Shown here: positions 33,881-55,051 of the stretch, one piece after another | Layout: each line of letters opens with the position of its first letter | How positions within the stretch are numbered: position 1 is the stretch's first letter | DNA from: Paenibacillus sp. CAA11 | Lineage (GTDB): Bacteria; Bacillota; Bacilli; Paenibacillales; Paenibacillaceae | DNA length: 64,000 bases | NCBI RefSeq assembly: GCF_003060825.1 | Contig: NZ_CP028922.1 | Location: 201,001 to 265,000, forward strand | Direction of reading: 5' to 3' | Program-made: the position numbers and the translations under genes | Notes under the pieces: generated by a model | Databases searched by the model: none | What the model saw: the letters and a program-made list of their open reading frames with translations, nothing else | Told to the model about the DNA's origin: nothing

Positions 33881-35191
33881 CTACCAATTGCAAAGGCGCG
33901 ATTCAATAGATTGGCTGTTCAATGAAATTTGGAATAGAACAATTTCAATTTGAAATATTTGATTTTCATAAGATATGTCCCATAATCCTTGAAGATCCTC
34001 CACAACTTTTTTTATATTATTTAAGCCCAAACCATGTCTTGACTTATCTTGCTTGTTTGATATGAACAAACCTTTATGATTTTTTATGATTTTATGGGTA
34101 TAAGGGTTTACGACCTTTATAAAGAGAGAATCATTCATGTAATGAATGTAAATATTTATATAGGGCTTAGAACCACTTATTTTTCTGCAAGCATCAATTG
34201 CGTTATCCAGAATATTTCCCAAAATGATACTCATTGCTATACTATCTAGTTGTAGGCTAGGCGGAATCTGTATGTCCAAATGAACCGGAATATTTAATTC
34301 GCGAGCTACTCTTTGCTTATAGTTGATGATGGAATCAATAATAATTGAGCCCGTATTACAACACTCTGACGTTTCATTAATGGTACCTAAAAGAGCATCC
34401 AGCTGCTTCATACTGGTTGTCTCATTTCCGGACTTTAATTGCGAGCGCAGGCCTAATAGTATATTTTTAAAATCGTGCTGAAACCTACGCATTTCCTCTT
34501 CCCTACTCTTGGTCACTAGGTATTGATGAATGTAATAAGCATTTTGCTGTTCCAGAAGGCTGTTTTTGATGTGGGCAGATTGGATACGCAGGATACGGTC
34601 ACACAAGACCAGGACCAATAAATTGATAAATAGTAAGCTGCCTGAAAGAACAGGGAACATAGCGGGGTATAATCGATACCATGGATTTGCAGAGATTTGG
34701 TGAATTCCTATGATACTGAATAGCGGGCATAAAAAGAGGATCATCCAATACCACTTGCTTAAGTGTCCTTCTCCAATAAATTGGGCTAGTCTTAATATCA
34801 TTTGCAGAAAAATAAATATAAGAAATTTTGAAAAAAATAATGTAAAGATATATCCTGTCATATCTTGAGCCTGAGCAAGGACAGCTGTATCAGTTAGTAT
34901 AATCACCACGGTTATTACAAAACCTATCCCCATTTTCCATGCTATTTGACCTTTATAAAGGAAGTTGCATAATAGGATAAGCCCGATATTAAGGCATAAG
35001 GTAAGGGCTCCCGACAAAGGGCTGAAGTGTAACGTTAAACTAAGCATATAATATAAGCTATACCCTAGAAATATGAGGGATTTACCAAATACACTTGTTC
35101 CAAAGACTTGCTTATAAAAATAATGAATAATAAAAGGAATCGAAATAAATGTGATTGAATAAAACAATTCCTCAATGAGAAAATTGTCCAA
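33881..35191 (-). CDS. GHKL sensor histidine kinase (AgrC/NatK-like)
   Basis: A 436-residue peptide-sensing-type kinase. The N-terminal 210 residues hold six or seven hydrophobic helices. The phospho-acceptor region R-F-Q-H-D-F-K-N with His near 237 matches the HPK10 class. N-box I-L-G-N-I-L-D-N-A-I-D-A and G-box H-G-L-G-L-N-N-I follow. It overlaps the response-regulator gene by 20 bases. AT-rich like the RiPP genes upstream of it on the other strand, which suggests that the system senses the peptide product or a related signal. Confidence 0.93.
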   Translation of the reverse strand: MDNFLIEELFYSITFISIPFIIHYFYKQVFGTSVFGKSLIFLGYSLYYMLSLTLHFSPLSGALTLCLNIGLILLCNFLYKGQIAWKMGIGFVITVVIILTDTAVLAQAQDMTGYIFTLFFSKFLIFIFLQMILRLAQFIGEGHLSKWYWMILFLCPLFSIIGIHQISANPWYRLYPAMFPVLSGSLLFINLLVLVLCDRILRIQSAHIKNSLLEQQNAYYIHQYLVTKSREEEMRRFQHDFKNILLGLRSQLKSGNETTSMKQLDALLGTINETSECCNTGSIIIDSIINYKQRVARELNIPVHLDIQIPPSLQLDSIAMSIILGNILDNAIDACRKISGSKPYINIYIHYMNDSLFIKVVNPYTHKIIKNHKGLFISNKQDKSRHGLGLNNIKKVVEDLQGLWDISYENQIFQIEIVLFQISLNSQSIESRLCNW

Positions 35192-35915
35192 TTAGATTCC
35201 CCCTGAAGTTTAAATAGCTTTTTTTAACGGAAGCTGTATATCGCTCACTAATAGGAATTTCCCGGCCACTTAGCAGTATTATCTTTTTTGCAGTGATTTG
35301 TTTCACATGATAAAAATTTATAATGTAAGATTGGTGAATCCGGATAAATTCATCACTAAATAATTTATCGTTTTCCTTATTTAAAGTACTGTAGTACTCA
35401 ATCGATTGTGTTGATGTGTGAAGAATGACTTTTCGGCAGTTGCTTTCCAGATATATGATTTCCTTGAACGGAATGAGGAGCTCACTGCCTCTTAGTTGTA
35501 CTGGCAGCAGCCGTCTTCTGTTCGATCTGCGTTTAATTTTTTGGATGGCTATCTCTAACTTTTGCTCAAATTTGGTAGACTGTATAGGTTTACTAATAAA
35601 ACCTGACGGTTGTACATCAAAAAGCTGCAAGTGATATTCCTCATGACTTGATATGTAAATAAGCTGCACCAGGTCATTATCTTCATCTTCTCTGAGTATA
35701 TGCCCTACGTCTATTCCATTTAGTCCACTCATTTCAATATCCATCAATATAATTTCATATTGACAGCTATGCCGAATTTCTTCAGTTAGTTTCTCTCCGG
35801 AGTAGAATATATCGATCTCTAGGGCCACCTCGTTTTTTTGTTGAAAGGATAATGCTAATTCTGCAATCTGCTCTGCCATTTGAACATCATCTTCGCAAAT
35901 AGCAATACGAATCAC
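35172..35915 (-). CDS. LytTR-type response regulator (AgrA-like)
   Basis: A 247-residue regulator. The receiver domain has the acidic E-D-D near the N-terminus and the phospho-acceptor Asp in I-I-L-M-D-I-E-M-S-G. The C-terminal LytTR domain includes F-I-R-I-H-Q-S-Y-I-I-N. GTG 35915 is favoured because GAGGAG lies 9 bases upstream; the frame runs to 35939. It is divergent from the ABC/RiPP operon, with direct repeats in between that fit LytTR binding. Confidence 0.93.
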   Translation of the reverse strand: MIRIAICEDDVQMAEQIAELALSFQQKNEVALEIDIFYSGEKLTEEIRHSCQYEIILMDIEMSGLNGIDVGHILREDEDNDLVQLIYISSHEEYHLQLFDVQPSGFISKPIQSTKFEQKLEIAIQKIKRRSNRRRLLPVQLRGSELLIPFKEIIYLESNCRKVILHTSTQSIEYYSTLNKENDKLFSDEFIRIHQSYIINFYHVKQITAKKIILLSGREIPISERYTASVKKSYLNFRGNLIGQFSH

Positions 35916-36029
35916 TAGAACCCGCTCCTCTATAATCAATCTATTTTTCCTTTTTATAGATCTAATTAAATTATAATCATATATCTACTTATTTTCAAAA
36001 ATAATCCAAAACAAATAAAACCGCAAAAA

Positions 36030-36056
36030 TTACATTTTTAATCTCACTTTTTACAT
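36030..36056 (+). promoter_or_regulatory. Candidate LytTR-binding direct repeat before the ABC/RiPP operon
   Basis: TTACAT occurs at 36030-36035 and 36051-36056, exactly 21 bp apart, just upstream of a -10-like TATTAT (36085-36090) that lacks a good -35. This is the layout expected for AgrA-type activation. Confidence 0.5.
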
Positions 36057-36136
36057 CAGGTGCTAACCTTGTTTCGGATTGATGTATTATTCAGTCAGGC
36101 AGAATTATTGTTACAGGAAGAGGGTGCGAGGACTTC

Positions 36137-37051
36137 TTGAATATTCCGGTTTTTGAAGCTAGGGGATTAGGCAAACGATACGGAATGGCATACGCCCTGC
36201 AAGATGTTGATATGGTTATAGAACAAGGCGATATCTATGGGCTTATTGGAGAAAATGGTGCAGGCAAGACAACCCTAATGAGGATTATAAGTGGCTTGGT
36301 GTATCCATCTGAGGGAAATATAGTCTTATTCGGTCAAAGCAAACCAAGAGATATTATTCAGGCTAGAAAACGACTGGGGATTTTTATTGAGAGACCAGCT
36401 TTATATCCACATTTAAGTGCATTTGGTAATCTAAAGTTTTATAGCGGATTATATGGATTTGGTAATAATTCAAGAATTCGTGAAGTTTTGGAGTGGGTAT
36501 CCTTATCGGATGTAGGAAATAAAAGAGTGTCACAGTTTTCCTTAGGGATGCGTCAAAGATTAGGGCTTGCTATTGCGTTGCTGAATCATCCGAAGTTCCT
36601 TATTTTGGATGAACCTATTAATGGGCTTGACCCCGCAGGGATCGTAGAAATAAGAAATATACTGACTAGATTAGTTCATGAAAATGGAGTTAGCATTCTT
36701 ATTTCTAGTCATATTTTGAGTGAGTTGCAGCTTCTGGCAACGAAGTTTGCTTTTATTCATAAGGGACGATTAATAAAAGAACTAACGCATGAAGATCTGA
36801 TCCAATCATCGCAAGTACAATATCGAATTAAGACTGCGAACACTTCAGCTGCAGTACAAATACTTCAACAGGAACTCAATATACCCAATATTATGGTTTC
36901 CAATGGTTCAGAGGTTTTTATACCAAAAAACAAGATTGAATTAGAGGCTTTGTTATCTATATTTCTTAAAAATGAGATACAGATTGAGGAAATTAGTCTT
37001 TCCTCAGTCAACCTTGAGCAATATTACATGGATCTAATAGGGGACAAGTAA
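36137..37051 (+). CDS. ABC transporter ATPase (ABC-2 type, immunity/export group)
   Basis: A 304-residue ATPase. Walker A G-E-N-G-A-G-K-T-T, signature F-S-L-G-M-R-Q-R, Walker B F-L-I-L-D-E-P-I-N-G-L-D-P are present, with a C-terminal regulatory tail from about 215. This subgroup includes bacitracin- and lantibiotic-resistance ATPases. The start is TTG 36137. The permease begins two bases after its stop codon. It opens the AT-rich operon that leads to the maturase genes, so self-immunity or export is likely. Confidence 0.92.
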   Translation: MNIPVFEARGLGKRYGMAYALQDVDMVIEQGDIYGLIGENGAGKTTLMRIISGLVYPSEGNIVLFGQSKPRDIIQARKRLGIFIERPALYPHLSAFGNLKFYSGLYGFGNNSRIREVLEWVSLSDVGNKRVSQFSLGMRQRLGLAIALLNHPKFLILDEPINGLDPAGIVEIRNILTRLVHENGVSILISSHILSELQLLATKFAFIHKGRLIKELTHEDLIQSSQVQYRIKTANTSAAVQILQQELNIPNIMVSNGSEVFIPKNKIELEALLSIFLKNEIQIEEISLSSVNLEQYYMDLIGDK

Positions 37052-37052
37052 T

Positions 37053-37850
37053 ATGAAGAATCTTCAAAGGACATTGACTTATTATATCTGGCGCGACCAG
37101 ACATTCATGGGAATAAGTTTATTTATCCTAATTGTCGGATTTATGCTTCCTATCTGGGTGGGGAATAAGACAGGATTTCAGTTTGATAACTGGATGGCAC
37201 CATTAACCTTAGTTACCCCATTGTCACTGTTTTTTTATTTTGTAATTCCTCTGTATTTAAGCTTTTTCCTTACAGAGGGCTTCGAGTATGGTTCAATCAA
37301 ACATGTTATTGCTTCTGGTTATAGCAGAACAAACTATATAATGGGGAAATACCTATCATCAATAAAAGTGATTGTATGGTGGATAGTTCAGTTTTTCGGA
37401 GTCTTCTATATTGTATATTTATTAGCCGCTTTGGTGTCCGGTTCGAGTATAAAGCACGTGAATTTAGGGCATGACTCGATGGTCTCCGTAAGTGTAATAT
37501 TGCTCAATGTTCTATATTTAGCTGCTTATGCGGCGATTATTATGCTAATAGGTGTCATGGTAAAACGAACAGCAACTGCTGTAGTTGCAACTTTCATCGT
37601 GGTATTTGGGGATTTTATGATAAGCGGGTATTTTAGGGAGAGCTCGTCAGATTTCTTATTGTGGTTATCTAATCATACATTTACAACACAGATTATGAAA
37701 TTTTCAGGAATCTACGTCTTAAATTCCGAACAAATTTTACTATCCGGAATTTCAGAATATTCTATGACACTGGTTATTCCCCTTATCTGGATAAGCTTGT
37801 GCTTAAGTCTAACCTACCTACTATTTAGAAGACAGGATATCCAATTCTAG
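37053..37850 (+). CDS. ABC-2 type permease
   Basis: A 265-residue membrane protein with six helices (near 20-40, 60-80, 105-130, 145-165, 175-195 and 235-258). The G-F-E-Y-G-S-I-K-H-V-I-A-S-G-Y-S-R segment after the second helix is typical of ABC-2 permeases. Partner of the preceding ATPase. Confidence 0.9.
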   Translation: MKNLQRTLTYYIWRDQTFMGISLFILIVGFMLPIWVGNKTGFQFDNWMAPLTLVTPLSLFFYFVIPLYLSFFLTEGFEYGSIKHVIASGYSRTNYIMGKYLSSIKVIVWWIVQFFGVFYIVYLLAALVSGSSIKHVNLGHDSMVSVSVILLNVLYLAAYAAIIMLIGVMVKRTATAVVATFIVVFGDFMISGYFRESSSDFLLWLSNHTFTTQIMKFSGIYVLNSEQILLSGISEYSMTLVIPLIWISLCLSLTYLLFRRQDIQF

Positions 37851-37929
37851 GGTTAAATCACATTTTTTACTCCTAGGATCCTGGTGTCCATTTCTATGGT
37901 ATTGATTTAACAGACTGGGGGAATTTAAT

Positions 37930-39696
37930 GTGAGTCAAAAGGTGTATTTGAGTGTCTTAGAACTTTTTAAACCTTATAAAAAAAATATTGTTGTGATCAG
38001 CATTGTAACATTACTAACCTCAGTGGGGAGCTTTCTAACTCCATGGCTAACCCAACAGCTTATTGATAAAGGGATTATGCAATCGGATTTTAATCAAGTT
38101 TTACAATTGGTTACTTTACTTTTTCTGGTTTTCCTTGTTCAGCAGATTTTTGGCCTTATTCAATTTTACTTTTATCGAGACCTAAGTGTAAGAATTCCTT
38201 ACGACCTAAATTATAAAGCTTGCAAACATGTATTGAAACTGAAATCGAAATATTTTAAAGAAAGAAACTTTTCAGAGGTAATGTCAGAGATATTTCAGGA
38301 TATTAATAATATATCTTCGCTAACAGGGAACCAATTTTTAACTTCATTCGTCAGTTTGTTCAAAATAGTAGCAGGTTTAATTGCATTATTTTTTATAAAT
38401 TGGAAGTTGACATTAATTATGCTTGCAACTATACCAATAAAGTTGCTAATTAGCGTATTCTTTTATAAGAAACAAGTCAGGATTTACGAGCTCATTATGT
38501 CTTTACAATCAAAGTTCGCTGTTTGGCTTAGTGATACCATTAGCGGAATGACTATCATTAAAATGTGGGGAATAGGTAATCAACGGATAAAGAAACTGCT
38601 TAATATATTGGAAGATAGTAAAACAGCAAAAGCGAAATTAATGTGGTGTAGCTATGTAGACAGTATAGCCAGTTCTTCTTTAGTAACAGTGTTTACATTT
38701 CTATTGTATGTATTTGGAGCTTTACTCATTAATAAGAATGACATAACAATAGGGGGACTTGTATCCTTTGTGGCTTATACTGCTTTAGTTTTTGAGCCAA
38801 TAAATATATTGTCGTACCTAATGACACAATTCTCTAGTGTAAAACCAGCATTTACAAGATTCATAAAATTTATTAGTACAGATACTGAAAATGATAAGAG
38901 TAATTCGGCTCATCTACCCTCTAGCGTTCAGATTGAGAATATAACCTTTGATCATGTTTCCTTATTCTATGATAAGGAGAGAGTCTTAAATAATATTAGC
39001 TTCTCTATTTATAAAGGAGAAAGAGTTGCTATTATTGGCCCAAATGGTAGCGGGAAATCTTCTCTTATTAGTTTATTACTAAGACTTAATGATCCAGATG
39101 GAGGAAGGATAGAGATTAACGGTACAGATATAAGTGATTACACTTTTGACTCATACAGGGCATTGTGGAGTTATATGGCTCAAGATAATTACATTTTCAA
39201 TGATACAATAGCCAATAATATTAATATCGATGAAACACTAACTAAAGGGCAAATCCTCGAAAGCTGTGCAAAATCAGGAGCTATGAACTTCATTGAGAAG
39301 TTACCTAATAGACTTAATACCCCTGTAGGTTTTAACGGATCTAAATTATCTGGAGGACAACGTCAGAAGGTTGCGTTAGCTCGGGCACTTAGTAAAAGAA
39401 ACACAAAAATTCTAGTGCTTGATGAGGCAACTTCTAATTTTGATTATCCTTCAGAGCAACTATTTTTTGACACAATTATGGCCTCGGAAGACCGTTATAT
39501 AACAATCATAATTACTCATAGACCAGAATTACTTAAGAAAGTGGATAAAATTATTTATTTAAATAAAGGAAGTATTGGTGGAATAGGAACTTTTGAATTT
39601 CTTTATTCTAATTCAGATAGTTTTAAAGATTATCTTGAATATGTTAAGAAAGAGGAGGACCAATATGCCGTTTATTCCTTTTCAAACCAGACCTAG
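37930..39696 (+). CDS. ABC exporter, fused membrane and ATPase domains
   Basis: A 588-residue half-transporter. Residues 1-320 form a six-helix exporter domain. The ATPase has Walker A G-P-N-G-S-G-K-S-S, signature L-S-G-G-Q-R-Q, Walker B I-L-V-L-D-E-A-T-S and His-loop I-T-H-R-P. There is no N-terminal C39 peptidase, so any leader removal must be done by another protein. GTG 37930 is the start. It overlaps the maturase gene by 32 bases, which ties it to the peptide pathway. Confidence 0.93.
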   Translation: MSQKVYLSVLELFKPYKKNIVVISIVTLLTSVGSFLTPWLTQQLIDKGIMQSDFNQVLQLVTLLFLVFLVQQIFGLIQFYFYRDLSVRIPYDLNYKACKHVLKLKSKYFKERNFSEVMSEIFQDINNISSLTGNQFLTSFVSLFKIVAGLIALFFINWKLTLIMLATIPIKLLISVFFYKKQVRIYELIMSLQSKFAVWLSDTISGMTIIKMWGIGNQRIKKLLNILEDSKTAKAKLMWCSYVDSIASSSLVTVFTFLLYVFGALLINKNDITIGGLVSFVAYTALVFEPINILSYLMTQFSSVKPAFTRFIKFISTDTENDKSNSAHLPSSVQIENITFDHVSLFYDKERVLNNISFSIYKGERVAIIGPNGSGKSSLISLLLRLNDPDGGRIEINGTDISDYTFDSYRALWSYMAQDNYIFNDTIANNINIDETLTKGQILESCAKSGAMNFIEKLPNRLNTPVGFNGSKLSGGQRQKVALARALSKRNTKILVLDEATSNFDYPSEQLFFDTIMASEDRYITIIITHRPELLKKVDKIIYLNKGSIGGIGTFEFLYSNSDSFKDYLEYVKKEEDQYAVYSFSNQT

Positions 39697-41077
39697 TCTC
39701 TTTTATGTTTATGATATGAATAAAAATAGTATCTTTAAAATTAAAAGCCAACAATTTGAGTCGTTAATAAATATTAGTAATGGATCTACTGATAAAAAGG
39801 ATTTGGAGATATATGAAGAGTTTCGAACAAAAGGTATGTTGTTAGATTCACCAATTGAGAAAGTTGAACATCCCGCTACAGAATTACTGGATCAACAGCT
39901 GGAAAGATGTGTGAATTCTATCACATTTCAGATGACACAGAATTGTAATTTAAGATGTGGTTATTGCCCATACTCAAATTTTGGTATCTATGATAACCGA
40001 CCCCATAGTTCAAAGCATGTATCCCTGGAAATATTGCATAAAGGTATAGATTTTTTAATAGATCACTCTAAAGATGTGGATCATTTACATGTTTCATTTT
40101 ATGGAGGAGAGCCGCTATTAGCAAAGGATTTAATAATTGAAACTATAAAATATACAAATAATAGGGTGAATGGTAAAGGGATTTCATATGGAATGACTAC
40201 AAACGGGACTTTGCTTAAAGATGATTTTATCAGGCAAATAAAAGATTTTGATATTTCAATTATGATTAGTTTAGATGGTCCTGAAAAAGTTCACAATATC
40301 CACAGAACCTATGTTAATGGTAAAGGTTCGTACGAGACAGTATACGAAAATATCAATTTCATAAAAAAGAGCTATCCAGAGTTATATAAAAAAATAAAAT
40401 TTAATACTGTAATTAGTCCTGGTAGTAACTATGAAGAAATTTATCAATTTTTTAGAAACGAAGAATTAGCTGACTTTTCAAAAGTAAGTCTTAATACCCT
40501 TTCAACAAACTATACTGAGGAGACTTTCTATTATGGGTCTAGTTTTTTCGAAGAGAGAAACTTCGAATTATTAAAAACGATTCTTTTATTATTGGGAAAG
40601 TTAAAAAATGAACCAATTACACATCATAAGAATGACATTGAATCTTTATTTAGCTTGAAAGAATTTTTTACTCCGATAAAGGAAACTTCGAAGGTTGCTC
40701 ATCCCTCTGGCACCTGTATTCCGGGGCTAAAAAAACTATTTGTTGATGTAGATGGTAACTTCTTTCCATGTGAAAGAATTGATGAGAATTCAGATTTTAT
40801 GAAATTGGGGAGCGTTGATAAAGGTTTTAATATTGATAAAGTACGAGAAATTCTAAACGTTGGAACGGTGACTGAGGATGTTTGTAAAAACTGTTGGGCT
40901 TTCCACTGTTGTTCCTTCTGTCCTGCTTCAACTGATAATGGAAAAGAGAATAAGTATGTAAGAAACTATAAATTAAAAAAATGCCATAAAGTAAAAGAAC
41001 AAGCCTTGGAAAAGTTAAAAAATTATACTCTTTTGAGAGAATATAAATTCCAATTCAATAAGGAGTTGATTTTATGA
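39665..41077 (+). CDS. Radical SAM/SPASM peptide maturase (CcpM-like)
   Basis: A 470-residue enzyme. The radical SAM cluster motif C-N-L-R-C-G-Y-C is at Cys94, Cys98 and Cys101, followed by F-Y-G-G-E-P-L for SAM binding. The C-terminal SPASM region supplies auxiliary-cluster Cys (F-F-P-C-E-R, C-K-N-C-W-A-F-H-C-C-S-F-C-P-A, C-H-K-V). Residues 1-80 look like a peptide-recognition domain. ATG 39665 follows GAGGAGG; the frame extends to 39593. Relatives (Cys-rich peptide maturase CcpM) make thioether links from Cys. It overlaps the next gene by 4 bases. Confidence 0.93.
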   Translation: MPFIPFQTRPSLFYVYDMNKNSIFKIKSQQFESLINISNGSTDKKDLEIYEEFRTKGMLLDSPIEKVEHPATELLDQQLERCVNSITFQMTQNCNLRCGYCPYSNFGIYDNRPHSSKHVSLEILHKGIDFLIDHSKDVDHLHVSFYGGEPLLAKDLIIETIKYTNNRVNGKGISYGMTTNGTLLKDDFIRQIKDFDISIMISLDGPEKVHNIHRTYVNGKGSYETVYENINFIKKSYPELYKKIKFNTVISPGSNYEEIYQFFRNEELADFSKVSLNTLSTNYTEETFYYGSSFFEERNFELLKTILLLLGKLKNEPITHHKNDIESLFSLKEFFTPIKETSKVAHPSGTCIPGLKKLFVDVDGNFFPCERIDENSDFMKLGSVDKGFNIDKVREILNVGTVTEDVCKNCWAFHCCSFCPASTDNGKENKYVRNYKLKKCHKVKEQALEKLKNYTLLREYKFQFNKELIL

Positions 41078-42129
41078 AGGAGCGTATCGCTATATATCCA
41101 TTTACGAGAGAATTAAGTTCTTTTATTTTATACAAAGATCAACTTAAAAATTACGAATTGGTTTTTGCTATTACTCCTAGAGGATGGGATAAGTTTGAAG
41201 ATCAAAAGGATCGGTTTGCGAAAATAGTACTGGATGAAGACACATTTTATTTAAATCAATGTATTAATTATGTTGATGTTTTATTACTTTGCAAACCGAT
41301 CTTGAATGTTGACCTTTCCTTATATGAGAATATCATAAAGCTAGCAAAAATAAATGGAGTCAAAGTAGTATATGTTGAAGAATTAGAAGCATTACTCATA
41401 AATAGGATTCAAAATAACTGGGAATGTTTAAAGTCACATGAAATTGTAGAAGTAAAAAGGCAAGAACAATCGAGTATTGAGGTACCCGTCATTTCAGTTA
41501 TAGGTATAGGGGAAAATTGCGAAAAATGGGATGTTCAACTCGGTTTACGTGACTTTTTTCTCAAAAAGGGCTATAAAGTCAGTTTAATATCTAACAACAA
41601 GCTATTAAAATTATTTGGAGCATCCATTTTTCCTCCAGTTATTAATAGTACCGAATATAAATTTGAGCAGCAGGTTGGAGCAATAAATTCTTATATAAAG
41701 AAAGTTGAATTAATGGATTCTCCAGACTTGATAATTATTGGTGTCCCCGGAGGAATAATGAGATATAACAGGTATGTTCATAATGGTTTTGGATATGCTC
41801 CCTTTTTAGTAAGTAATGCGTTTATACCTGATATCACGGTTGTTAGTCTCTACTGTGGTTATTATGAGAAAGAACAATTAGAAGAAATAAAAAGAACCTG
41901 CTTGTACAAATTAGGAGTTAATGCAAACTACTTTCATATTTCGTCTAAAGTTAGCCAATATAATTTGGAGTCTAAACAAATAGATTATTTTTCTATTGAT
42001 CAAAACTATGTCAATGAACTTGTTGAAAAAAATAGTATTAACGGCGCCTTTTTCAACATTAATAAAGAACCAAAAGAAGTATTTCAAAGAATCCTGGAAG
42101 AACTACATCATAATATTCCTGTTATGTAA
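41074..42129 (+). CDS. Peptide maturation system protein (TIGR04066-like)
   Basis: A 351-residue soluble protein. The opening I-A-I-Y-P-F-T-R-E-L-S-S-F and the later I-I-I-G-V-P-G-G-I-M-R-Y-N-R with G-F-G-Y-A-P-F-L-V-S are remembered as features of the TIGR04066 family, which occurs beside CcpM-type maturases in clostridial Cys-rich peptide clusters. Its biochemical role is not known. Two Rossmann-like halves are suggested (1-120 and 135-330). It is translationally coupled to the maturase. Confidence 0.82.
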   Translation: MKERIAIYPFTRELSSFILYKDQLKNYELVFAITPRGWDKFEDQKDRFAKIVLDEDTFYLNQCINYVDVLLLCKPILNVDLSLYENIIKLAKINGVKVVYVEELEALLINRIQNNWECLKSHEIVEVKRQEQSSIEVPVISVIGIGENCEKWDVQLGLRDFFLKKGYKVSLISNNKLLKLFGASIFPPVINSTEYKFEQQVGAINSYIKKVELMDSPDLIIIGVPGGIMRYNRYVHNGFGYAPFLVSNAFIPDITVVSLYCGYYEKEQLEEIKRTCLYKLGVNANYFHISSKVSQYNLESKQIDYFSIDQNYVNELVEKNSINGAFFNINKEPKEVFQRILEELHHNIPVM

Positions 42130-42143
42130 GGGGGTTAAATCTG

Positions 42144-42389
42144 ATGGATCAAAATCATCTCTATAAAATTATTCGGGAAACAGTTTCTCTATATATTGAA
42201 GAATATGATGATGATACAAATCTATTGGGAATCACACCAGTTAGAAATATTATATACATTTTATCAGATTTAGAAAAAGGCTTAAGTTTCGTAATTGATG
42301 ATTTCTTTATAAATGAAGTAAAGCAGTTTAGTATTGATAACTTATGTAAAGTGATACCAAAATACTTATTTCAAACAGCGAATAATTAA
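42144..42389 (+). CDS. Acyl-carrier-related maturation protein lacking the carrier serine
   Basis: An 81-residue helical protein of acyl-carrier size and pattern. In true carriers the second helix begins with G-x-D-S and the Ser holds phosphopantetheine. Here the corresponding stretch reads L-L-G-I-T-P-V-R-N-I, so no Ser is available. Such ACP-related proteins are known neighbours of TIGR04066/CcpM genes. It may bind a partner rather than carry an acyl group. GGGGG lies about 10 bases before the ATG. Confidence 0.78.
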   Translation: MDQNHLYKIIRETVSLYIEEYDDDTNLLGITPVRNIIYILSDLEKGLSFVIDDFFINEVKQFSIDNLCKVIPKYLFQTANN

Positions 42390-42464
42390 AATTCACTATG
42401 AGATTGTTAGATATAAGAGATGTATTCAAAACAGAAGATCAAGCTATAGAAAGAGGTGAAAGAC

Positions 42465-42611
42465 ATGCTGGAATTGAATAAAAATGCATCGCAACAAGCT
42501 GCTCCTGATGTATCGACATTTGCAACTTGCTGGTGTATGTGTCTATGCCTTATATTTACTGAGAAAAGACATAACGATCAGTTAGACGCGCTCAATGGTG
42601 TTAAAAACTAA
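42465..42611 (+). CDS. Candidate Cys-rich precursor peptide (RiPP)
   Basis: A 48-residue peptide, below the usual gene-finder limit. AGAGGTG lies about 7 bases before ATG 42465. Residues 1-20 form a plausible leader (charged and Gln/Asn/Ala-rich). Then T-C-W-C-M-C-L-C places Cys at 22, 24, 26 and 28, alternating with other residues. The 20-residue tail is rich in Asp, Asn, Glu and Thr, possible thioether acceptors. It is the last gene after the maturase, TIGR04066-like and carrier-like genes. An overlapping 27-codon frame (42398-42481) has no RBS. Expression and modification are untested. Confidence 0.8.
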   Translation: MLELNKNASQQAAPDVSTFATCWCMCLCLIFTEKRHNDQLDALNGVKN

Positions 42612-42875
42612 TACTGTTTTAGCTAACGTTATATCTATATCTTTATAAGTTAACAATTGGCAAGCCTTTTCTATAAGAAATTAGTTTTAACTTCTGTTTT
42701 GGATACATCCCTTATGTTTAGCATTTTCCTTGTATTTAGAAGAAGTACGACAACTAAGTTTTAGTGAAGTAGCCGTATATAATATAGATATTTATTTGTT
42801 TGTTGACACTTTTATTGGAGATAAACCTACAACCATATACTTTTTTTGAAAATAAAAAAACACCTTATAAGAGTA

Positions 42876-42975
42876 TGAAGTGCACCCCTTAGAATAGGCA
42901 TTGGAAAAACCCCAGGGTTAACCGATGAATTCTAAGGGGGTATTTTTATGGAAACTAAAGGTCAAAAGTTTAAGA
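42876..42975 (+). mobile_element. IS3-family left-end remnant
   Basis: TGAAGTGCACCCC begins an end-like sequence with ACCCCTTAGAAT repeated inverted as ATTCTAAGGGGGT (42929-42941). Then ATG 42948 starts M-E-T-K-G-Q-K-F-K, as in IS3-type orfA proteins. After about nine codons similarity stops and unrelated sequence follows, so only a fragment remains. The 264 bases before it (42612-42875) are AT-rich with nothing recognisable. Confidence 0.6.
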
Positions 42976-43057
42976 TTAAATTGAACTATTTTACTTTTAG
43001 AATATGTTGGAATCCCTATGAAATACTAAATATAACGGATTCTCGATTTTGTTTACC

Positions 43058-43370
43058 CAATCCAGATCCAATGAAGTTTATCTTATACGAAGGTAATGAT
43101 GATACCCTATATATAACTAAAGAAAAGGAGATAAGCCAGCAAATTTCGGAAAAGGTGCTGAATGAGGGGCTGAAGGTGCCTGTGATTGGCCTCGGAACAT
43201 ACAGTCTTAAGAGAGAAAAAGGTGTTAAGGCGATGGCGGGGGCTATAGATGCCGGTTACCGTCTGCTTGATTCGGCGTTTAATTACGAGAATGAGGGGGC
43301 ACTTGGTAAGGCGATTCGGCAGAGCTCTGTTCACAGAGAAGAGCTGTTGGTCTACTCGAAGCTGCCTGGG
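43058..43370 (+). pseudogene. Truncated first copy of the aldo/keto reductase 5' part
   Basis: This segment repeats the promoter-proximal region and first 75 or so codons of the intact gene at 43873. The start codon has become ATA (43130-43132), with SQQISEKV in place of NQQIPEKV, and homology ends at C-S/Y-S-K-L-P-G before an early stop at 43385. The reading frame is fused to the IS remnant upstream. Confidence 0.85.
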
Positions 43371-43476
43371 TCCTTATTCAACTAACAACAACGGATTATA
43401 TATTTTTACTTTTTGGAAAATCCCTTAGTTTTCCGTATAATTAAAAAGGTGATATTTGGGAAGGGAGAGATACTGT

Positions 43477-43779
43477 TTGGCTGACAGACAAAAGCGAGTT
43501 TCATTTTTTAAAAAATCTTGGGTATCAAAAATTAGTGTATTTGTATTGTCACAAATCATTTTTATTTTCTTTGAAAACACAGGGTGGATGCCAAATTATA
43601 GAGATATTGATGGAACATTTTTTGGGAGAATTACGGAGTCGTCAATTTTTAAAGAGTGGTTTACCTTTTACGAAACACCACAATTGAATTTGCTAACCGT
43701 CTTTTTCGCCATCTTTTTCCTTGTGCCTGGAATAATTAGTGCGATAATTTCGCTAAGTAAGCAAACTAAACATGAATAA
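43477..43779 (+). CDS. Small membrane protein between the duplicated segments
   Basis: A protein of about 100 residues with a TTG start at 43477 and GGGAGAG upstream. Two helices are predicted (near 20-40 and 70-92) with a soluble segment of about 30 residues between. No family is recognised. It lies between the broken and intact aldo/keto reductase copies, so it came with, or caused, the rearrangement. Confidence 0.6.
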   Translation: MADRQKRVSFFKKSWVSKISVFVLSQIIFIFFENTGWMPNYRDIDGTFFGRITESSIFKEWFTFYETPQLNLLTVFFAIFFLVPGIISAIISLSKQTKHE

Positions 43780-43790
43780 AGGTTATCCAT

Positions 43791-44112
43791 AGCAATCCAG
43801 ATCCGGTGAAGTTTATCTTATACGAAGGTAATGATATCCTATATAACAAAAGACAAAGGAGGCTTTCTTAAGATGAACCAGCAAATTCCGGAAAAGGTGC
43901 TGAATGATGGGCTAAAGGTACCTGCCATCGGCCTGGGGACATACAGTCTTAAGGGAGAAGAAGGTGTGAAGGCGATGGCGGGGGCTATAGACGCTGGTTA
44001 CCGGCTGCTAGATTCGGCGTTTAATTACGAGAATGAAGGAGCTCTTGGCAAGGCGATTCGGCAGAGCTCTGTACCTAGAGAAGAGCTGTTAATCTGCTCG
44101 AAGCTGCCTGGG
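43791..44112 (+). repeat. Second member of the aldo/keto reductase 5' duplication
   Basis: From CAATCCAGATCC to AAGCTGCCTGGG this copy corresponds to 43058-43370 with scattered substitutions and small indels. It contains the genuine RBS and start codon. Confidence 0.85.
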
Positions 44113-49191: not shown

Positions 49192-51975
49192 ATGAGTATA
49201 GAGAAAATTGGAATTCCATTGGAAGGGTTTCCAGAGTTCAGCAGAAAGGTAGCAGCAGAGGGTGCCGTATTGTTGAAGAATGAAGGCCAGGTGCTTCCCA
49301 TTCGAAATGATGAAAGCGTTTCGATTTTTGGCAGAACCCAGGTGAATTATTATCGAAGCGGTACGGGATCAGGGGGCAGCGTGCATGTGGCGTATACAAC
49401 CCATCTGCTCGGCGGCTTGCGGGATAAGAAGAGCATTAAGGTCAATGAGGAACTGGCCGCAGTATACGAGAAATGGATTGAGCAGAATCCATTTGATAAT
49501 GGCGGAGGCGGATGGGCCGCAGAGCCGTGGCATCAGAAGGAAATGCCCTTGACGGATGAGCTGGTTGCAGAGGCCAGAAGCAAGTCCGATAAAGCTGTTG
49601 TAGTCATTGGACGGACAGCAGGTGAAGATCAAGATAATGCCATTGAGCCGGGAAGCTATCTGCTGACCGAAGACGAGAAGGCGATGCTGAAGGCAGTCAC
49701 CCGGCATTTCGAACAGACCGTGGTTGTGCTGAATGTATCCAATATTGTGGATATGAGCTGGTTGAGTGCTGCCGATTACGTACACCCGATTGCGGGCGTT
49801 ATCTACGCCTGGCATGGCGGCATGGAGGGGGGAAATGCCATTGCCGATGTGCTTGCCGGAGAGGTGACGCCAAGCGGTAAATTAACCGATACCATTGCCT
49901 ATTCCATTGAGGATTATCCATCGACCCGCAATTACGGGAACGAATTCAAAAATTTCTACCAAGAAGATATTTATGTGGGCTACCGGTATTTCGAGACGTT
50001 CTGCCCGGATAAGGTGCAGTTCGCATTCGGGTTTGGCCTGTCTTATACGGAGTTCAGTGTGGAGCCTGAAGAGGCCAAGCTGACTACCAGAGACGGAGAA
50101 CTATATATTGAAGTGACTGTTGCGGTAAAAAACACGGGCAGCACCTTTGCAGGCAAGGAAGTTGTTCAGGTCTATGTGGAAGCGCCGCAAGGCAAGCTGG
50201 GCCAGCCGGCCAGAGCACTGGCTGCGTTCGGGAAGACCGGCCTGCTGCAGCCGGGACAGTCGGAGCGTCTGACGATCAGTTTCCCTGTAAGAGCTATGGC
50301 TTCTTATGATGATGGCGGTGTAACGGGCCACCGGTCCGCCTATGTGCTAGAAGCGGGGACATACAAGGTCTATGCGGGCAGCAGTGTGAAGAATGCCGCG
50401 CTTGTCAGTGTAGACGGACAACCCGGCTACGTGGTGGAAGAGCTTCAAGTGGTGGAGCAGCTGGAAGAGGCGCTGGCGCCGACGGAGAGCTTCACCCGGA
50501 TGAAGCCGGGTGCGCGCAAGGAGGATGGCACCTATGAGCTAACCTTCACAGAGGTGCCGCTGCAGAAGGTTTCGATGGAGGAGCGGATCAACAGCCGGCT
50601 GCCGCAGAGCTTAGAGCAAACCGGCGACCGCGGTTATAAGCTCAAGGATGTGGCTGCGGGCAAAGTGAGCCTGGAGGCCTTCATCGCTCAGCTTAGTGAT
50701 GAAGATCTGGCCGCGATTGTTCGCGGCGAAGGGATGAGCAGCCCTCTTGTTACGTCGGGAACGGCCTCGGCTTTTGGCGGCGTAAGCGACCAGCTGCTTG
50801 GCTACGGCATCCCGGTGGGCTGTACGGCGGACGGACCATCCGGAATTCGGATGGACAGCGGGGAGAAGGCTACCCAGGTATCTATTGGTACCCTGCTTGC
50901 TGCCACCTGGAACGTGGATTTGGTTGAAGAGCTCTATGTGATGGAGGGCCGGGAGCTGGTAAGGAATCAGATCGACACCCTGCTTGGGCCGGGTCTCAAT
51001 ATTCGCCGGAGCCCGCTGAATGGGCGGAACTTCGAATATTTCTCAGAGGACCCGTATGTATCCGGCGTATTTGCCGCAGCCTGCACCCGCGGCATTCGGA
51101 AGGGCGGCTCCCATGCGACGCTGAAGCATTTCGCCTGCAATAATCAGGAGAAATACCGGAGCAAGGTGGATGCGATTGTCTCCGAGCGCGCGCTGCGGGA
51201 GATTTATCTGAAGGGCTTTGAGATCGCCGTGAAGCAGGGCGATGCTCGTTCCGTCATGACTTCTTATAACCCTGTTAACGGGCATTGGGCGGCTTCCAAC
51301 TATGATTTGAATACGACCATTCTTCGCGGGGAATGGGGCTTTAAGGGTATTGTTATGACCGATTGGTGGGCCGTGATGAACGATGTGGTACATGGAGGGC
51401 CTGCGGACAGGAAATATATGAACTGGATGGTTCGCGCACAGAATGATCTATATATGGTCGTGGCAAACTATGGTGCAGAGACCAATGTGTGGGGAGACAA
51501 TACACTGGAATCTCTAGAGAACGGCACTTTAACCCGTGGGGAGCTTCAGCGCTCAGCGATGAATATTTGTAACTTCCTCATGGAGGCCCCTGTGTTCTCC
51601 CGGGATCAGGTGATCGAGGAACATGTGCAGGTCTTCAAAGCTAATGCAGCTCTGAAGGCGGAGCAGGCTCAAGGCTTGGCTGAACAGAATCAGATCAAGT
51701 TAACCGCTGATTCGGCTCTGATGAACGTAGTACAGCCCGGAGTATATCGGGTCTTCGTGAATCTCATGTCGCAAGGCAGTGAGCTGGCCCAGAGCGCATG
51801 TAATTTGTCACTGAACGGACAGCTGGTTACGACAGTTCAGACGAATGGGACGGATGGGCGCTGGATGACCCAGAAGCTTGTGAAGGTTGAACTTGAGACG
51901 GGGCTTTACGAGGTGAAGCTGGATCACATGAAGCCAGGTCTTCAGATCGACTGGATTGAATTCAAGAAGCTATAA
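49192..51975 (+). CDS. GH3 beta-glucosidase, permuted domain order
   Basis: A 927-residue enzyme. The domain usually found at the C-terminus of GH3 enzymes comes first (about 10-270, starting A-A-E-G-A-V-L-L-K-N-E-G), followed by a fibronectin-III-like domain (about 280-400). The catalytic TIM barrel is next (about 500-830), with nucleophile Asp724 in V-M-T-D-W-W and L-K-H-F-A-C-N-N-Q for sugar binding. A short C-terminal module follows. Reversed GH3 enzymes are known in ruminal and some Bacillota bacteria. There is no signal peptide, so it hydrolyses imported beta-glucosides. Confidence 0.92.
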   Translation: MSIEKIGIPLEGFPEFSRKVAAEGAVLLKNEGQVLPIRNDESVSIFGRTQVNYYRSGTGSGGSVHVAYTTHLLGGLRDKKSIKVNEELAAVYEKWIEQNPFDNGGGGWAAEPWHQKEMPLTDELVAEARSKSDKAVVVIGRTAGEDQDNAIEPGSYLLTEDEKAMLKAVTRHFEQTVVVLNVSNIVDMSWLSAADYVHPIAGVIYAWHGGMEGGNAIADVLAGEVTPSGKLTDTIAYSIEDYPSTRNYGNEFKNFYQEDIYVGYRYFETFCPDKVQFAFGFGLSYTEFSVEPEEAKLTTRDGELYIEVTVAVKNTGSTFAGKEVVQVYVEAPQGKLGQPARALAAFGKTGLLQPGQSERLTISFPVRAMASYDDGGVTGHRSAYVLEAGTYKVYAGSSVKNAALVSVDGQPGYVVEELQVVEQLEEALAPTESFTRMKPGARKEDGTYELTFTEVPLQKVSMEERINSRLPQSLEQTGDRGYKLKDVAAGKVSLEAFIAQLSDEDLAAIVRGEGMSSPLVTSGTASAFGGVSDQLLGYGIPVGCTADGPSGIRMDSGEKATQVSIGTLLAATWNVDLVEELYVMEGRELVRNQIDTLLGPGLNIRRSPLNGRNFEYFSEDPYVSGVFAAACTRGIRKGGSHATLKHFACNNQEKYRSKVDAIVSERALREIYLKGFEIAVKQGDARSVMTSYNPVNGHWAASNYDLNTTILRGEWGFKGIVMTDWWAVMNDVVHGGPADRKYMNWMVRAQNDLYMVVANYGAETNVWGDNTLESLENGTLTRGELQRSAMNICNFLMEAPVFSRDQVIEEHVQVFKANAALKAEQAQGLAEQNQIKLTADSALMNVVQPGVYRVFVNLMSQGSELAQSACNLSLNGQLVTTVQTNGTDGRWMTQKLVKVELETGLYEVKLDHMKPGLQIDWIEFKKL

Positions 51976-53407: not shown

Positions 53408-55051
53408 GTGGATAAAAATTATTTGGTTCGGCATGTATGGGAACACAAGACTAAATTAATTGTTTGTTTTATATTGCTGGTTATGATTACACTACTTAGC
53501 ATTGTACCTGGAATATTAACTAAGAACATATTTGATAAAGGGATAATGGTTGAGAATTTTAGATATATCTTCATCAGTGTTGTTATGCTGTGTGCAACTT
53601 ATATCTTAAACGGGGCTTTAACCTATATTTCTAATAATCTGAATATAAAGGTTACGCAGAATGTTTTATCTGAAATATACAAGGAATTGTTAGTAAAGAT
53701 TTTGAAAATGCCAATGGATTTTTTTAAAGATAAGGAAAGCGGGTATATACTAAGCCGTTTAAATGAAGTGAACCAATTGAGCTCGATATTGTCGCTTACA
53801 GTTCTACAATCCGTTATTGGTGTATTCCAGTTTCTTGGTGTATATACGATTTTAATTATTACAGATTACAAGATTACATTACTTTTCACGGTCATAATCC
53901 CGCTATTTATAATAGTGCCCAAATATTGTAACAGCAAACTGACTGGTTATTCCAAGAACGTGTTCGAAAAAAACTCCGTCTTGCAAGGGAAAGTTGTACA
54001 AGCGATTAAAGGAGTCGAAGAAATTAAGACCTTATCTTTAGAAGAGGATAAGTCGAAGGAATTGAGTGAGATTGTAACTGGGCTAAAGACATTTCAAATT
54101 AAGCAAGCGAATGTTTTTTCAATAAGTTCTGTTTTTTCGTCGGGATTAAATAATATCGTAAGCGTCTTAATTTTATTGGTTTGCGGTTATTTCGTCGTGT
54201 TTCATCATCTTTCACTAGGTACCTACATGATGTTTTCTATGTACATTCCAATTTTATGCGGCAGCATTCAATCGATTACAACAGTCTTCGTTCATTTGAA
54301 ACCTACTATGATCAGTTTTAAGAGAATTGAAACATTTTTTTACGAGGTTGAGGAGGAGGAAATGAATTGTAAACTCCCCATCGATGAAATCAGAACGATA
54401 ACGATCGAAAACTTAAATTTTAAATATGCTAACCATCCCAATCTCATTATAGAGGATCTGAATTTGACGATTGAGGCGAACGATAAGATTTTAATAACGG
54501 GTAAAAACGGCTCTGGAAAAACAACTTTGTTAAGACTCTTGCTAGGTTTATATCGCGTTGATGATGGAAGGATCTTGGTAAATGGTATGAATATCAATGA
54601 TATAACAAGAGATTCGCTAAGGAATAGAATCAGTACGGTATCTCAAAAAATCCATTTATTTAATGACAGTATTAAAAACAATATAATTTGTCATTATGAT
54701 GTTGATCCACAGCAATATTCAAAAATCTTAGATGCCGTTAATTTAGCAGACTTTATTCAAACGTTAGAATTAAAGGACGATACGCTTGTCGGTGAGAATG
54801 GGGTTAACCTATCAGGTGGTCAAATTCAGAAAATTGCCATTGCAAGAGCCTTAATTCGCAATGCGGATGTGTTCCTTTTTGACGAATTTTTAAGCAATGT
54901 CGATGATGAGAGCAAATCAATAATAGAAGTGCTACTTCAAGATATGCTGAAAGATAAAATCTGTATCTTTATAGAGCATCAACCGCTATTCGATAGCATA
55001 TGCAATAAATTGGTTAATATGGAGAAGGCTAATTACAGCTTAGTCCAGTAA
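53408..55051 (+). CDS. Solitary ABC exporter
   Basis: A 547-residue half-transporter. The N-terminal 310 residues give six helices. Walker A G-K-N-G-S-G-K-T, signature L-S-G-G-Q, Walker B V-F-L-F-D-E-F and H-loop I-E-H-Q-P are present. The Walker B is followed by Phe-Leu rather than the usual Ala-Thr. GTG start. The AT-rich codon use differs from its neighbours and resembles the cluster at 34-42 kb, suggesting transfer. No peptide or partner gene is adjacent. Confidence 0.9.
   Translation: MDKNYLVRHVWEHKTKLIVCFILLVMITLLSIVPGILTKNIFDKGIMVENFRYIFISVVMLCATYILNGALTYISNNLNIKVTQNVLSEIYKELLVKILKMPMDFFKDKESGYILSRLNEVNQLSSILSLTVLQSVIGVFQFLGVYTILIITDYKITLLFTVIIPLFIIVPKYCNSKLTGYSKNVFEKNSVLQGKVVQAIKGVEEIKTLSLEEDKSKELSEIVTGLKTFQIKQANVFSISSVFSSGLNNIVSVLILLVCGYFVVFHHLSLGTYMMFSMYIPILCGSIQSITTVFVHLKPTMISFKRIETFFYEVEEEEMNCKLPIDEIRTITIENLNFKYANHPNLIIEDLNLTIEANDKILITGKNGSGKTTLLRLLLGLYRVDDGRILVNGMNINDITRDSLRNRISTVSQKIHLFNDSIKNNIICHYDVDPQQYSKILDAVNLADFIQTLELKDDTLVGENGVNLSGGQIQKIAIARALIRNADVFLFDEFLSNVDDESKSIIEVLLQDMLKDKICIFIEHQPLFDSICNKLVNMEKANYSLVQ

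Follow-up and report, generated by a model that had tools for sequence, protein, structure and literature searches.

What does an AT-rich gene cluster of Paenibacillus sp. CAA11, organized around a radical SAM maturase and a short Cys-rich open reading frame, produce, and how closely does it follow the known CcpM/CLI_3235 systems? We analyzed a 64,000-nucleotide stretch of this genome (hereafter, the window), in which the cluster spans positions 33881-42733 and is larger than the 36137-42611 interval of the original prediction (Table 1). ORF calls agree with the earlier statement that transporter, radical SAM/SPASM, TIGR04066-like, carrier-like, and 48-codon CxCxCxC genes lie on one strand: all are present on the plus strand of 36137-42611, with short gaps or overlaps between them. 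The claimed AT-richness is equally clear: GC content drops from 49% immediately ahead of the region to 30-37% at 34-43 kb and is 51% at 44-45 kb. What had been overlooked is a divergent two-component system (33881-35939) and an inverted repeat flanking the precursor gene. A nine-gene block is common to six Paenibacillaceae genomes, and the core from exporter to precursor is also found in an Oscillospiraceae MAG. Family matches bear out the proposed radical-SAM RiPP-type cluster in a Paenibacillus-like genome. Its product, probably also exported by the cluster, is likely to be a small Cys-rich peptide with cross-links.

Table 1 Features of the cluster, in window coordinates
Feature	Position	Strand	Basis
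Sensor histidine kinase, AgrC/HPK10-like, 436 aa	33881..35191	-	GHKL ATPase domain, several N-terminal membrane helices
LytTR-family response regulator	35172..35939	-	Pfam LytTR 1.3e-20, Response_reg 5.8e-12
Possible response-regulator site, direct repeat ATTACAT/TTTACAT, 21-bp period	36029..36056	+	5' of operon
ABC transporter ATPase, LanF/TIGR03740-like (self-protection or export)	36137..37051	+	TIGR03740, ABC_tran
ABC-2-type permease partner, 265 aa	37053..37850	+	ABC2_membrane_2 E 3.8e-5, under Pfam cut-off
ABC exporter, membrane and ATPase halves	37930..39696	+	ABC_membrane 1.4e-37, ABC_tran 3.2e-31
CcpM-like radical SAM/SPASM maturase	39665..41077	+	Start picked from relatives; listed ORF start 39593
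TIGR04066 maturation protein	41074..42129	+	TIGR04066 238.5 bits, cut-off 200
ACP-like protein, 81 aa	42144..42389	+	Profile match to canonical ACP-related proteins
5' arm of long-range stem	42395..42446 (conserved core 42404-42434)	+	46/52 positions pair with 3' arm
Precursor peptide gene, 48 aa	42465..42611	+	Four invariant Cys in CxCxCxC, then invariant IFTEKRHxDxLD
3' arm of long-range stem	42682..42733 (conserved core 42694-42724)	+	Pairing score, covariation

As anticipated, the cluster contains its own regulator and export genes, namely a LytTR two-component system, an ABC exporter, and an ABC-2-like pair. The kinase, present in six of the seven loci with 46-51% identity to the window protein, matches Pfam HATPase_c_5 (1.2e-22) and has seven hydrophobic segments in residues 4-204, two of them overlapping; its best NCBIfam model is AgrC (5.9e-12), with 45.5 bits far under the cut-off of 500. 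The response regulator shows 55-57% identity in five relatives, and no two-component system lies beside the Oscillospiraceae locus. A direct repeat of 21-bp period (at least 5/7 matches) recurs in four of the six loci bearing the two-component system and was not found in the other two, P. oralis and P. ihumii; the response regulator may bind this repeat, which reads ATTACAT/TTTACAT in the window. The ATPase of the ABC-2 pair matches ABC_tran and reaches 227.6 bits against TIGR03740, under the cut-off of 309.75, while its permease partner has six hydrophobic segments and 47-55% identity in five relatives. The ABC exporter, conserved at 58-60% identity in six relatives, has no C39 peptidase domain according to a Pfam scan.

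For the maturase, TIGR04068 is by far the best family (487.9 bits, E 3.2e-146, narrowly missing the cut-off of 500), the next model scoring 198.5 bits. Radical_SAM is matched at 2.2e-21 and SPASM, below cut-off, at E 0.023; C94xxxC98xxC101 is accompanied by seven more invariant Cys in the C-terminal part (nine sequences). Next-best models include the lachnocin, PapB, RumMC, quinohemoprotein (QhpD-type), and SCIFF maturases, all of which act on Cys-containing peptides, and thioether formation by the window enzyme is plausible on family grounds. In a maturase tree of 16 rows, with no outgroup and with the L008-L010 proteins absent, the seven loci (six Paenibacillaceae and the Oscillospiraceae MAG) form one group (support 100/100) on a long branch of 1.31. 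By the curated models, the cluster is a branch sister to the canonical CcpM/CLI_3235 system. Of the earlier assignment to CcpM/TIGR04066/ACP-related sets, the relatedness stands and, by the same models, the canonical CLI_3235 type does not: TIGR04066 passes, TIGR04068 stays at 487.9 bits versus 500, and TIGR04065 and TIGR04069 give no match. The latter, which even at E up to 10 matches nothing at the locus, is a weak discriminator, since only one of six canonical loci passes it (the others score 65.6, 50.5, 39.7, 19.5, and 13.7 bits). The clostridial home given to such sets has to be widened, as canonical ones also occur in Paenibacillus: the genome analyzed here holds two, L011 and L012, and SacP23 is another.

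The TIGR04066 protein is the only cluster member exceeding its curated CcpM-system cut-off. Its C-terminal half appears to be a degenerate DUF1611-like P-loop domain, a connection drawn because S8-TIGR04066 fusions match both models: three of them match PF07755 over cut-off, inside their TIGR04066 region. The window protein gives no PF07755 match at E up to 1, and one of 11 TIGR04066 proteins does so at E 0.087. The ACP-like protein has no NCBIfam or Pfam match; profile-profile comparison relates it to canonical ACP-related proteins (E 3.5e-7, Prob 93). Carrier proteins bear the phosphopantetheine serine in a DS(L) motif. The corresponding loop of the window protein, LGITPVRN, lacks serine in either register. 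Among the seven ACP-like proteins of this type, the carrier column is Val in six and Thr in one in the profile-match register, and Ser in five and Pro in two when shifted by one; in nine canonical ACP-related proteins it is Ser once, Pro six times, and Ala twice. Asp-Ser occurs at the carrier site in none of the 16 proteins. What remains of the "carrier-like" designation is the profile relationship, carrier function of the window protein being ruled out by a loop without serine. Among solved structures, no convincing sequence relative turned up for TIGR04066 (best E 1.8) or for the ACP-like protein (best E 0.21).

The precursor starts with the ATG at 42465, and its Cys run reads CWCMCLC in the window; the calculated monoisotopic mass of the neutral 48-aa peptide, Met retained, is 5383.54. 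Seven loci have in common the near-invariant core CxCxCxCxIFTEKRHxDxLD; 21 of 48 alignment columns are invariant, including all four Cys, and the six relatives' precursors are 58-89% identical to that of the window. Of 394 family genomes, an HMM of the seven homologues picks out six, the source genome among them, with the match always beside the maturase, which argues that the ORF is no chance Cys run. The new Cys-rich precursor proposed originally is conserved next to homologous maturases in all seven close loci. TIGR04065, too, leaves the locus unmatched even when E up to 10 is allowed; it is passed by four of six canonical loci, both of the same genome included (40.5 and 30.4 bits), while L015 scores 19.8 bits and L016 is without a listed match. 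Precursor pN/pS is 0.05-0.49 over 21 pairs, in many of which synonymous sites are near saturation. Mean identity across relatives is 72% for the precursor versus 69% for the maturase, and pN between P. oralis and P. ihumii is 0.13 versus 0.07. The notion of a precursor evolving more slowly than every one of its enzymes is borne out for the TIGR04066 and ACP-like proteins, not clearly for the maturase.

To look for a QhpE-like S8 protease, we compared 12 proteins of the ..IDDG.. type with ORFs from the window and its six relatives. They matched only the TIGR04066 proteins of these loci, apart from three weak, short matches (E 0.001-0.008), one of which, a 135-aa ORF in P. ihumii, lies within the S8 part. 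No S8 protease was found in the seven loci (16-64 kb examined per locus); all nine canonical loci examined hold an ..IDDG..-type ORF, Pfam S8 being confirmed for L012 and L013. As no leader protease was found nearby, the route to the mature peptide is incomplete.

A stem of ~31 bp closes around the precursor ORF in each of the seven loci. Its ungapped pairing score is 55-79, with none of 400 shuffles reaching the score of any locus. None of 236 control genes attains 55 (maximum 40), and ten canonical precursors score 16-33, two of them also with low shuffle counts (L014, 1/200; L023, 4/200). In the stem alignment, 92.2% of cells are paired and 15 of 31 pairs have changed on both sides; covariation is 0.421, compared with 0.217±0.026 in shuffles (0/500) and 0.07-0.14 when the arms are slid. 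For the window, the MFE z is -4.79. G.U cells (18 at nine sites) outnumber A.C cells (11 at five sites), which leans to RNA without being decisive. Rfam returned four matches across 35900-43900 at E up to 5, each below its gathering score and away from the stem; 3' of the 3' arm, the window showed no terminator. We read the stem as a putative RNA element that shields or excises the precursor mRNA. Searches of open-licence PMC papers showed no description of either this precursor or a precursor-enclosing stem.

Could the inverted repeat instead act as DNA, forming an invertible or mobile cassette with the precursor? Inverted repeats are self-complementary as DNA too, and A.C mismatches occur at five sites. 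However, precursor orientation is identical in 7/7 loci, the arms occur once in the genome, and no recombinase was recognized among the neighboring genes scanned (part of the ORFs). Differences between the arms also recur at fixed positions (U.G at pair 23 in 5/7 loci, A.C at pair 15 in 6/7), unlike in recombining repeats; constant orientation, single copy, and conserved mismatches together make inversion or mobility improbable. Pairing of the two flanks over long range also recalls hok-like control, in which 5'-3' pairing holds the mRNA translationally silent until trimming. With the 3' arm included, predicted start-site openness drops from 0.64 to 0.42 in the window and from 0.50 to 0.38 in the Oscillospiraceae locus, which would fit translational repression, but the change is at most 0.06 in the other five loci and the ribosome site falls within the loop rather than the stem, so that we regard this mode of control as unlikely.

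The cluster might also be an ordinary CLI_3235/CcpM bacteriocin member, like SacP23, just too divergent for the TIGR models. Its maturase is near the cut-off, its TIGR04066 protein over it, and its ACP-like protein related by profile; the models are incomplete for canonical loci as well (TIGR04069 1/6, TIGR04065 4/6), and the gene set overlaps that described for SacP23 (PMC10731318). We still find this rather doubtful given the separate maturase group on its long branch, a precursor beyond the reach of TIGR04065 whose leader and tail differ, the different regulation, the S8 protease not found in these loci, and a stem seen in this group only. A role for the peptide mainly as a pheromone or signal rather than an antibiotic deserves more weight, even if we lean against it: six of seven loci have their own AgrC-like kinase and LytTR regulator, the precursor core is almost invariant, and a review table gives quorum sensing as the activity of SCIFF peptides (PMC8326336). 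Against it, the ATPase of the ABC-2 pair resembles, under cut-off, lantibiotic protection transporters, one locus has no two-component system, and SacP23 is reported to be antibacterial (PMC10731318).

As to mobility, the two flanks were never adjacent in the window's order and orientation among 59 relatives (at most five candidates scored per genome), and therefore no empty insertion site is demonstrable; in one relative, two flank pieces lie ~0.9 kb apart on opposite strands. Phage or plasmid carriage was considered and set aside, no close relative being present among 212 plasmid records (all <60% identity, 34% at best among the matches listed), in three unannotated faecal contigs with TIGR04066 relatives (25-29% identity), or in viral contigs, which hold no TIGR04066 relative and 12 maturase relatives, all at ≤35%.

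Overall, we favor, with somewhat better than even confidence, a self-contained, peptide-regulated RiPP operon sister to CcpM/CLI_3235 that would work as follows. The kinase would sense an extracellular peptide, perhaps the cluster's own product, and the LytTR regulator would then turn on the promoter ahead of 36137. The 48-aa precursor would be translated from an mRNA with its ORF in the loop of a stem of ~31-52 bp. Free of the ribosome site, this stem most likely would protect the segment or mark it for RNase III-type excision, and we propose that the precursor is therefore produced in excess over the enzymes. The maturase would form thioethers between C22, C24, C26, and C28 and the invariant tail, in which E33, D38, D41, and T32 are candidate acceptors; the P-loop-like TIGR04066 protein and the protein of ACP fold would presumably assist, the latter as an adaptor rather than a carrier. 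The ABC exporter would release the peptide, and the ABC-2 pair might shield the producer. We give a little less than even credence to the broader joint claim of a new class of cis-acting RNA element, in which a long-range stem around an entire RiPP precursor ORF yields a discrete, protected mRNA within the operon and has been maintained by compensatory substitutions through a transfer between Bacilli and Clostridia. In that claim the element is coupled to a new Cys-ladder peptide, nearly invariant, that matures without a carrier-competent ACP or a dedicated leader protease.

RiPP producers need far more precursor than enzyme from a single operon. A covarying stem with the precursor gene in its loop would meet this need in a defined and testable way and provide a searchable signature for precursors missed by HMMs. 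The cluster also sorts the parts of the CcpM system into those seemingly dispensable (S8 protease, carrier serine, CLI_3235 precursor) and those kept (maturase, TIGR04066, ACP fold), and it ties the uncharacterized TIGR04066 family, as a suggested link, to DUF1611-like P-loop proteins and subtilisin-like proteases. The peptide, with its fixed Cys ladder and acidic tail, offers a substrate for mapping cross-link chemistry.

Long stems closing long loops are familiar from pre-rRNA processing and hok-type 5'-3' mRNA pairing, whereas the window loop holds a RiPP precursor ORF within an operon and has no Rfam match. AgrC/AgrA and class II bacteriocin peptide-sensing systems pair an HPK10-type kinase with a LytTR regulator, as does the window cluster, which however is without a recognized AgrB/AgrD, double-glycine leader, or C39 exporter. 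In ranthipeptides/SCIFF and freyrasin, radical SAM maturases form Cys-to-Asp/Thr/Asn thioethers (PMC8326336). The window maturase counts PapB and SCIFF-maturase models among its next matches, yet its family differs from those described there, as do the CxCxCxC spacing and acidic tail of its precursor. The TIGR04068/66/69, subtilase, and ABC cluster of Roseburia intestinalis L1-82 shares the accessory gene set but has a subtilase, and its describers report finding no structural gene (PMC4573289). Another close comparison is SacP23 from P. polymyxa #23, a CLI_3235-class peptide reported as expressed and antibacterial (PMC10731318). Relative to the cluster as presented in that report, the window cluster revealed neither an S8 protease nor a sigma factor and has a two-component system and an ABC-2 pair; its precursor is last in the operon, with unrelated leader and tail, and is enclosed by a stem (SacP23 DNA was not among the stem-tested sequences). 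Shared by both are a TIGR04068-type maturase, TIGR04066, an ACP-related protein, an ABC transporter, and a Cys-rich precursor (PMC10731318).

The operon is a real and intact RiPP-type gene set on a branch of its own within a system already described; we infer its chemistry, its activity and the role of the stem around its precursor gene. All genes named in the original prediction are present on the + strand (ABC ATPase, ABC-2-like permease, ABC exporter, radical SAM/SPASM enzyme, TIGR04066 protein, an 81-aa ACP-like protein and the 48-codon ORF), and the region is AT-rich as described (30-37% GC). The proposed borders, however, did not hold: the cluster runs past them, with a divergent two-component system (TCS) and an inverted repeat enclosing the precursor gene. 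The duplicated aldo/keto reductase part next to it is a possible scar of cluster insertion.

Location of features in the window, in the host genome (G000) and in comparison loci (L numbers)
Feature	Location	Observation
AgrC-like kinase and LytTR regulator	33881-35939	divergent
Stem, 5' arm and 3' arm	42395-42446 and 42682-42733	46/52 positions pair, wobbles counted
Aldo/keto reductase gene, 5' part	43129-43370 and 43871-44112	present twice, 88% identical, directly downstream of cluster
GH3 glycosidase	49192-51975	C-terminal domain model matches ahead of N-terminal one (circularly permuted order)
Further ABC transporter gene	53408-55051	membrane + ATPase; inside second AT-rich stretch (33-34% GC, 53-55 kb)
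One-helix membrane peptide, ~33 codons	L021:8104-8262	by eye
S8 fusion genes	L027:7963-9723, L028:6987-8855, L031:7607-9427	adjoin radical SAM-like genes
Canonical CcpM loci of the host	G000:C1:873105-874478 (L011), G000:C1:3432754-3434148 (L012)	CLI_3235-class precursors, S8-type protease ORFs
Cys-rich precursor-like genes	L015:1180-1386 and 6854-7066	related, about 5.5 kb apart

A genome scan returned four loci of this type, and reading the neighbourhoods of TIGR04066 matches added two more. Seven distinct window-type loci are recognized, namely the window, P. oralis, P. ihumii, P. selenitireducens, two Paenibacillaceae genomes (G263 and G285) and an Oscillospiraceae MAG, and the complete nine-gene order is kept in six. 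The MAG locus spans exporter through precursor and has no adjacent TCS; genes for a sigma factor and an ABC ATPase follow it. In a 16-row tree lacking an outgroup, all seven maturases fall into one group (support 100/100), within which the MAG maturase clusters with those of P. oralis and P. ihumii (98/96), a placement that points to transfer. The precursor HMM matched 6 of 394 family genomes, own genome counted and always at window-type loci, besides one broken, partial match with stops (G404); among 398 genomes drawn from the phylum it matched the own genome only. The type is therefore rare. By eye, a one-helix membrane peptide, possibly an immunity peptide, is encoded between the ABC-2 permease and exporter in L021 and in the same gap of L025 and L026; this ORF was not seen in the window.

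A Cys-rich peptide is conserved beside homologous maturases, with seven precursors (46-48 aa) at the seven loci. Invariant residues occupy 21 of 48 columns: in order, LNK near the start, Q, ST, A, four Cys as CxCxCxC, IFTEKRH, D and LD. Mean pairwise identity is 72% for the precursor, 69% for the maturase, 58% for the ACP-like protein and 54% for TIGR04066, and precursor pN/pS is 0.05-0.49 (21 pairs). Precursors at canonical loci, i.e. those typical of the CcpM/CLI_3235 system, differ by eye in their KKLxK-like leader and mostly Ser/Thr/Asn-rich tails. Because Cys-Asp/Glu/Thr links are described for freyrasin, QhpD and SCIFF (PMC8326336), the invariant acidic E33, D38 and D41 are candidate thioether acceptors.

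An unexpected, well-supported structural element surrounds the precursor: the sequence separating the ACP-like gene from the precursor gene has its complement 3' of the latter. The best ungapped pairing scores 55-79 in each of the seven loci, reached by 0/400 dinucleotide shuffles, while ten canonical precursor genes from nine loci score 16-33 (lowest shuffle counts 1/200 for L014 and 4/200 for L023). The controls, 236 genes (ORFs of at least 150 aa from 19 loci, each taken with 90 nt of preceding and 220 nt of following sequence), never reached 55, their maximum being 40. Over 31 aligned pairs in seven sequences, 92.2% of cells pair, a figure biased upward by the picking of arms for pairing in these same sequences. 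This choice alone does not account for the double changes: both sides vary at 15/31 pairs, e.g. A-U to G-C (pairs 8, 10) and U-A to C-G (pairs 5, 11). The covariation score is 0.421 versus 0.217±0.026 in shuffles (0/500) and 0.07-0.14 when slid. A folding energy of -96.9 kcal/mol (z -4.79) was computed for the 355-nt segment, the arms are single-copy in the genome, and no Rfam family matches the stem.

The loop of the stem contains the ribosome site, and removing the 3' arm shifts predicted start-site openness by at most 0.06 in 5/7 loci; in the other two, openness is lower with the arm than without it (0.42 versus 0.64 in the window, 0.38 versus 0.50 in the MAG). We therefore favour a stem that would protect or excise the precursor mRNA over one that silences it. 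The element could instead, less probably, act as DNA; a terminator search found none in the window, and the count of G.U versus A.C sites (9 versus 5) is not decisive for RNA. Against this stand the identical precursor orientation in 7/7 loci, the conserved U.G and A.C mismatches and, by eye, hairpin-plus-T runs past the 3' arm in P. selenitireducens, G263 and G285. The balance leans, not decisively, towards a stem acting as RNA.

In the window ACP-like protein the carrier-serine loop reads LGITPVRN, with no serine in any register. Profile alignment places Val (6) or Thr (1) in the carrier column of the seven window-type proteins, and Ser (5) or Pro (2) one residue earlier; nine canonical ACP-related proteins have Ser (1), Pro (6) or Ala (2), and Asp-Ser occurs at the site in none of the 16. 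An adaptor role would fit better than a carrier role. Fusion proteins in L027, L028 and L031 carry an N-terminal Peptidase_S8 (subtilisin-like) domain and TIGR04066 over the remainder, under its cut-off, within which a DUF1611 P-loop match exceeds its own; TIGR04066 thus probably represents a DUF1611-like P-loop protein working beside the protease. Its P-loop-like stretch carries an invariant lysine, K151 (11/11). No S8 protease turned up in the window-type loci beyond three short, weak matches, and a C39 peptidase domain is absent from the exporter in the window. L031 also holds, by eye, ORFs resembling FabH/FabF/FabG, an AMP-ligase and a phosphopantetheinyl transferase, which suggests a lipidated or fatty-acid-linked peptide pathway.

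Assignment to the CcpM/TIGR04066/ACP-related sets stood in part. Against NCBIfam, the TIGR04066 protein scores 238.5 bits (cut-off 200), but the maturase falls short of TIGR04068 (CcpM) at 487.9 bits (cut-off 500; next best model 198.5), and the ACP-like protein and precursor have no match; in a ten-genome search, TIGR04069 and TIGR04065 gave nothing at the window locus at E up to 10. The last two models are incomplete for canonical loci too, because in that search TIGR04065 exceeded its cut-off in 4/6 of them (including both host loci, 40.5 and 30.4 bits) and TIGR04069 in only 1/6. TIGR04068 matched over cut-off in 5 of 98 genomes searched, and TIGR04066 matched 44 of 394 family genomes, in 27 of them above cut-off. 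L015 contains a duplicated precursor, the two copies separated by an S8-type gene and three other ORFs of 150 aa or more. The CLI_3235 system is partly known: its member SacP23 from P. polymyxa #23 was expressed and proved antibacterial (PMC10731318). Judged by these family models, the window cluster appears to be a sister of that system, not a full-standing member.
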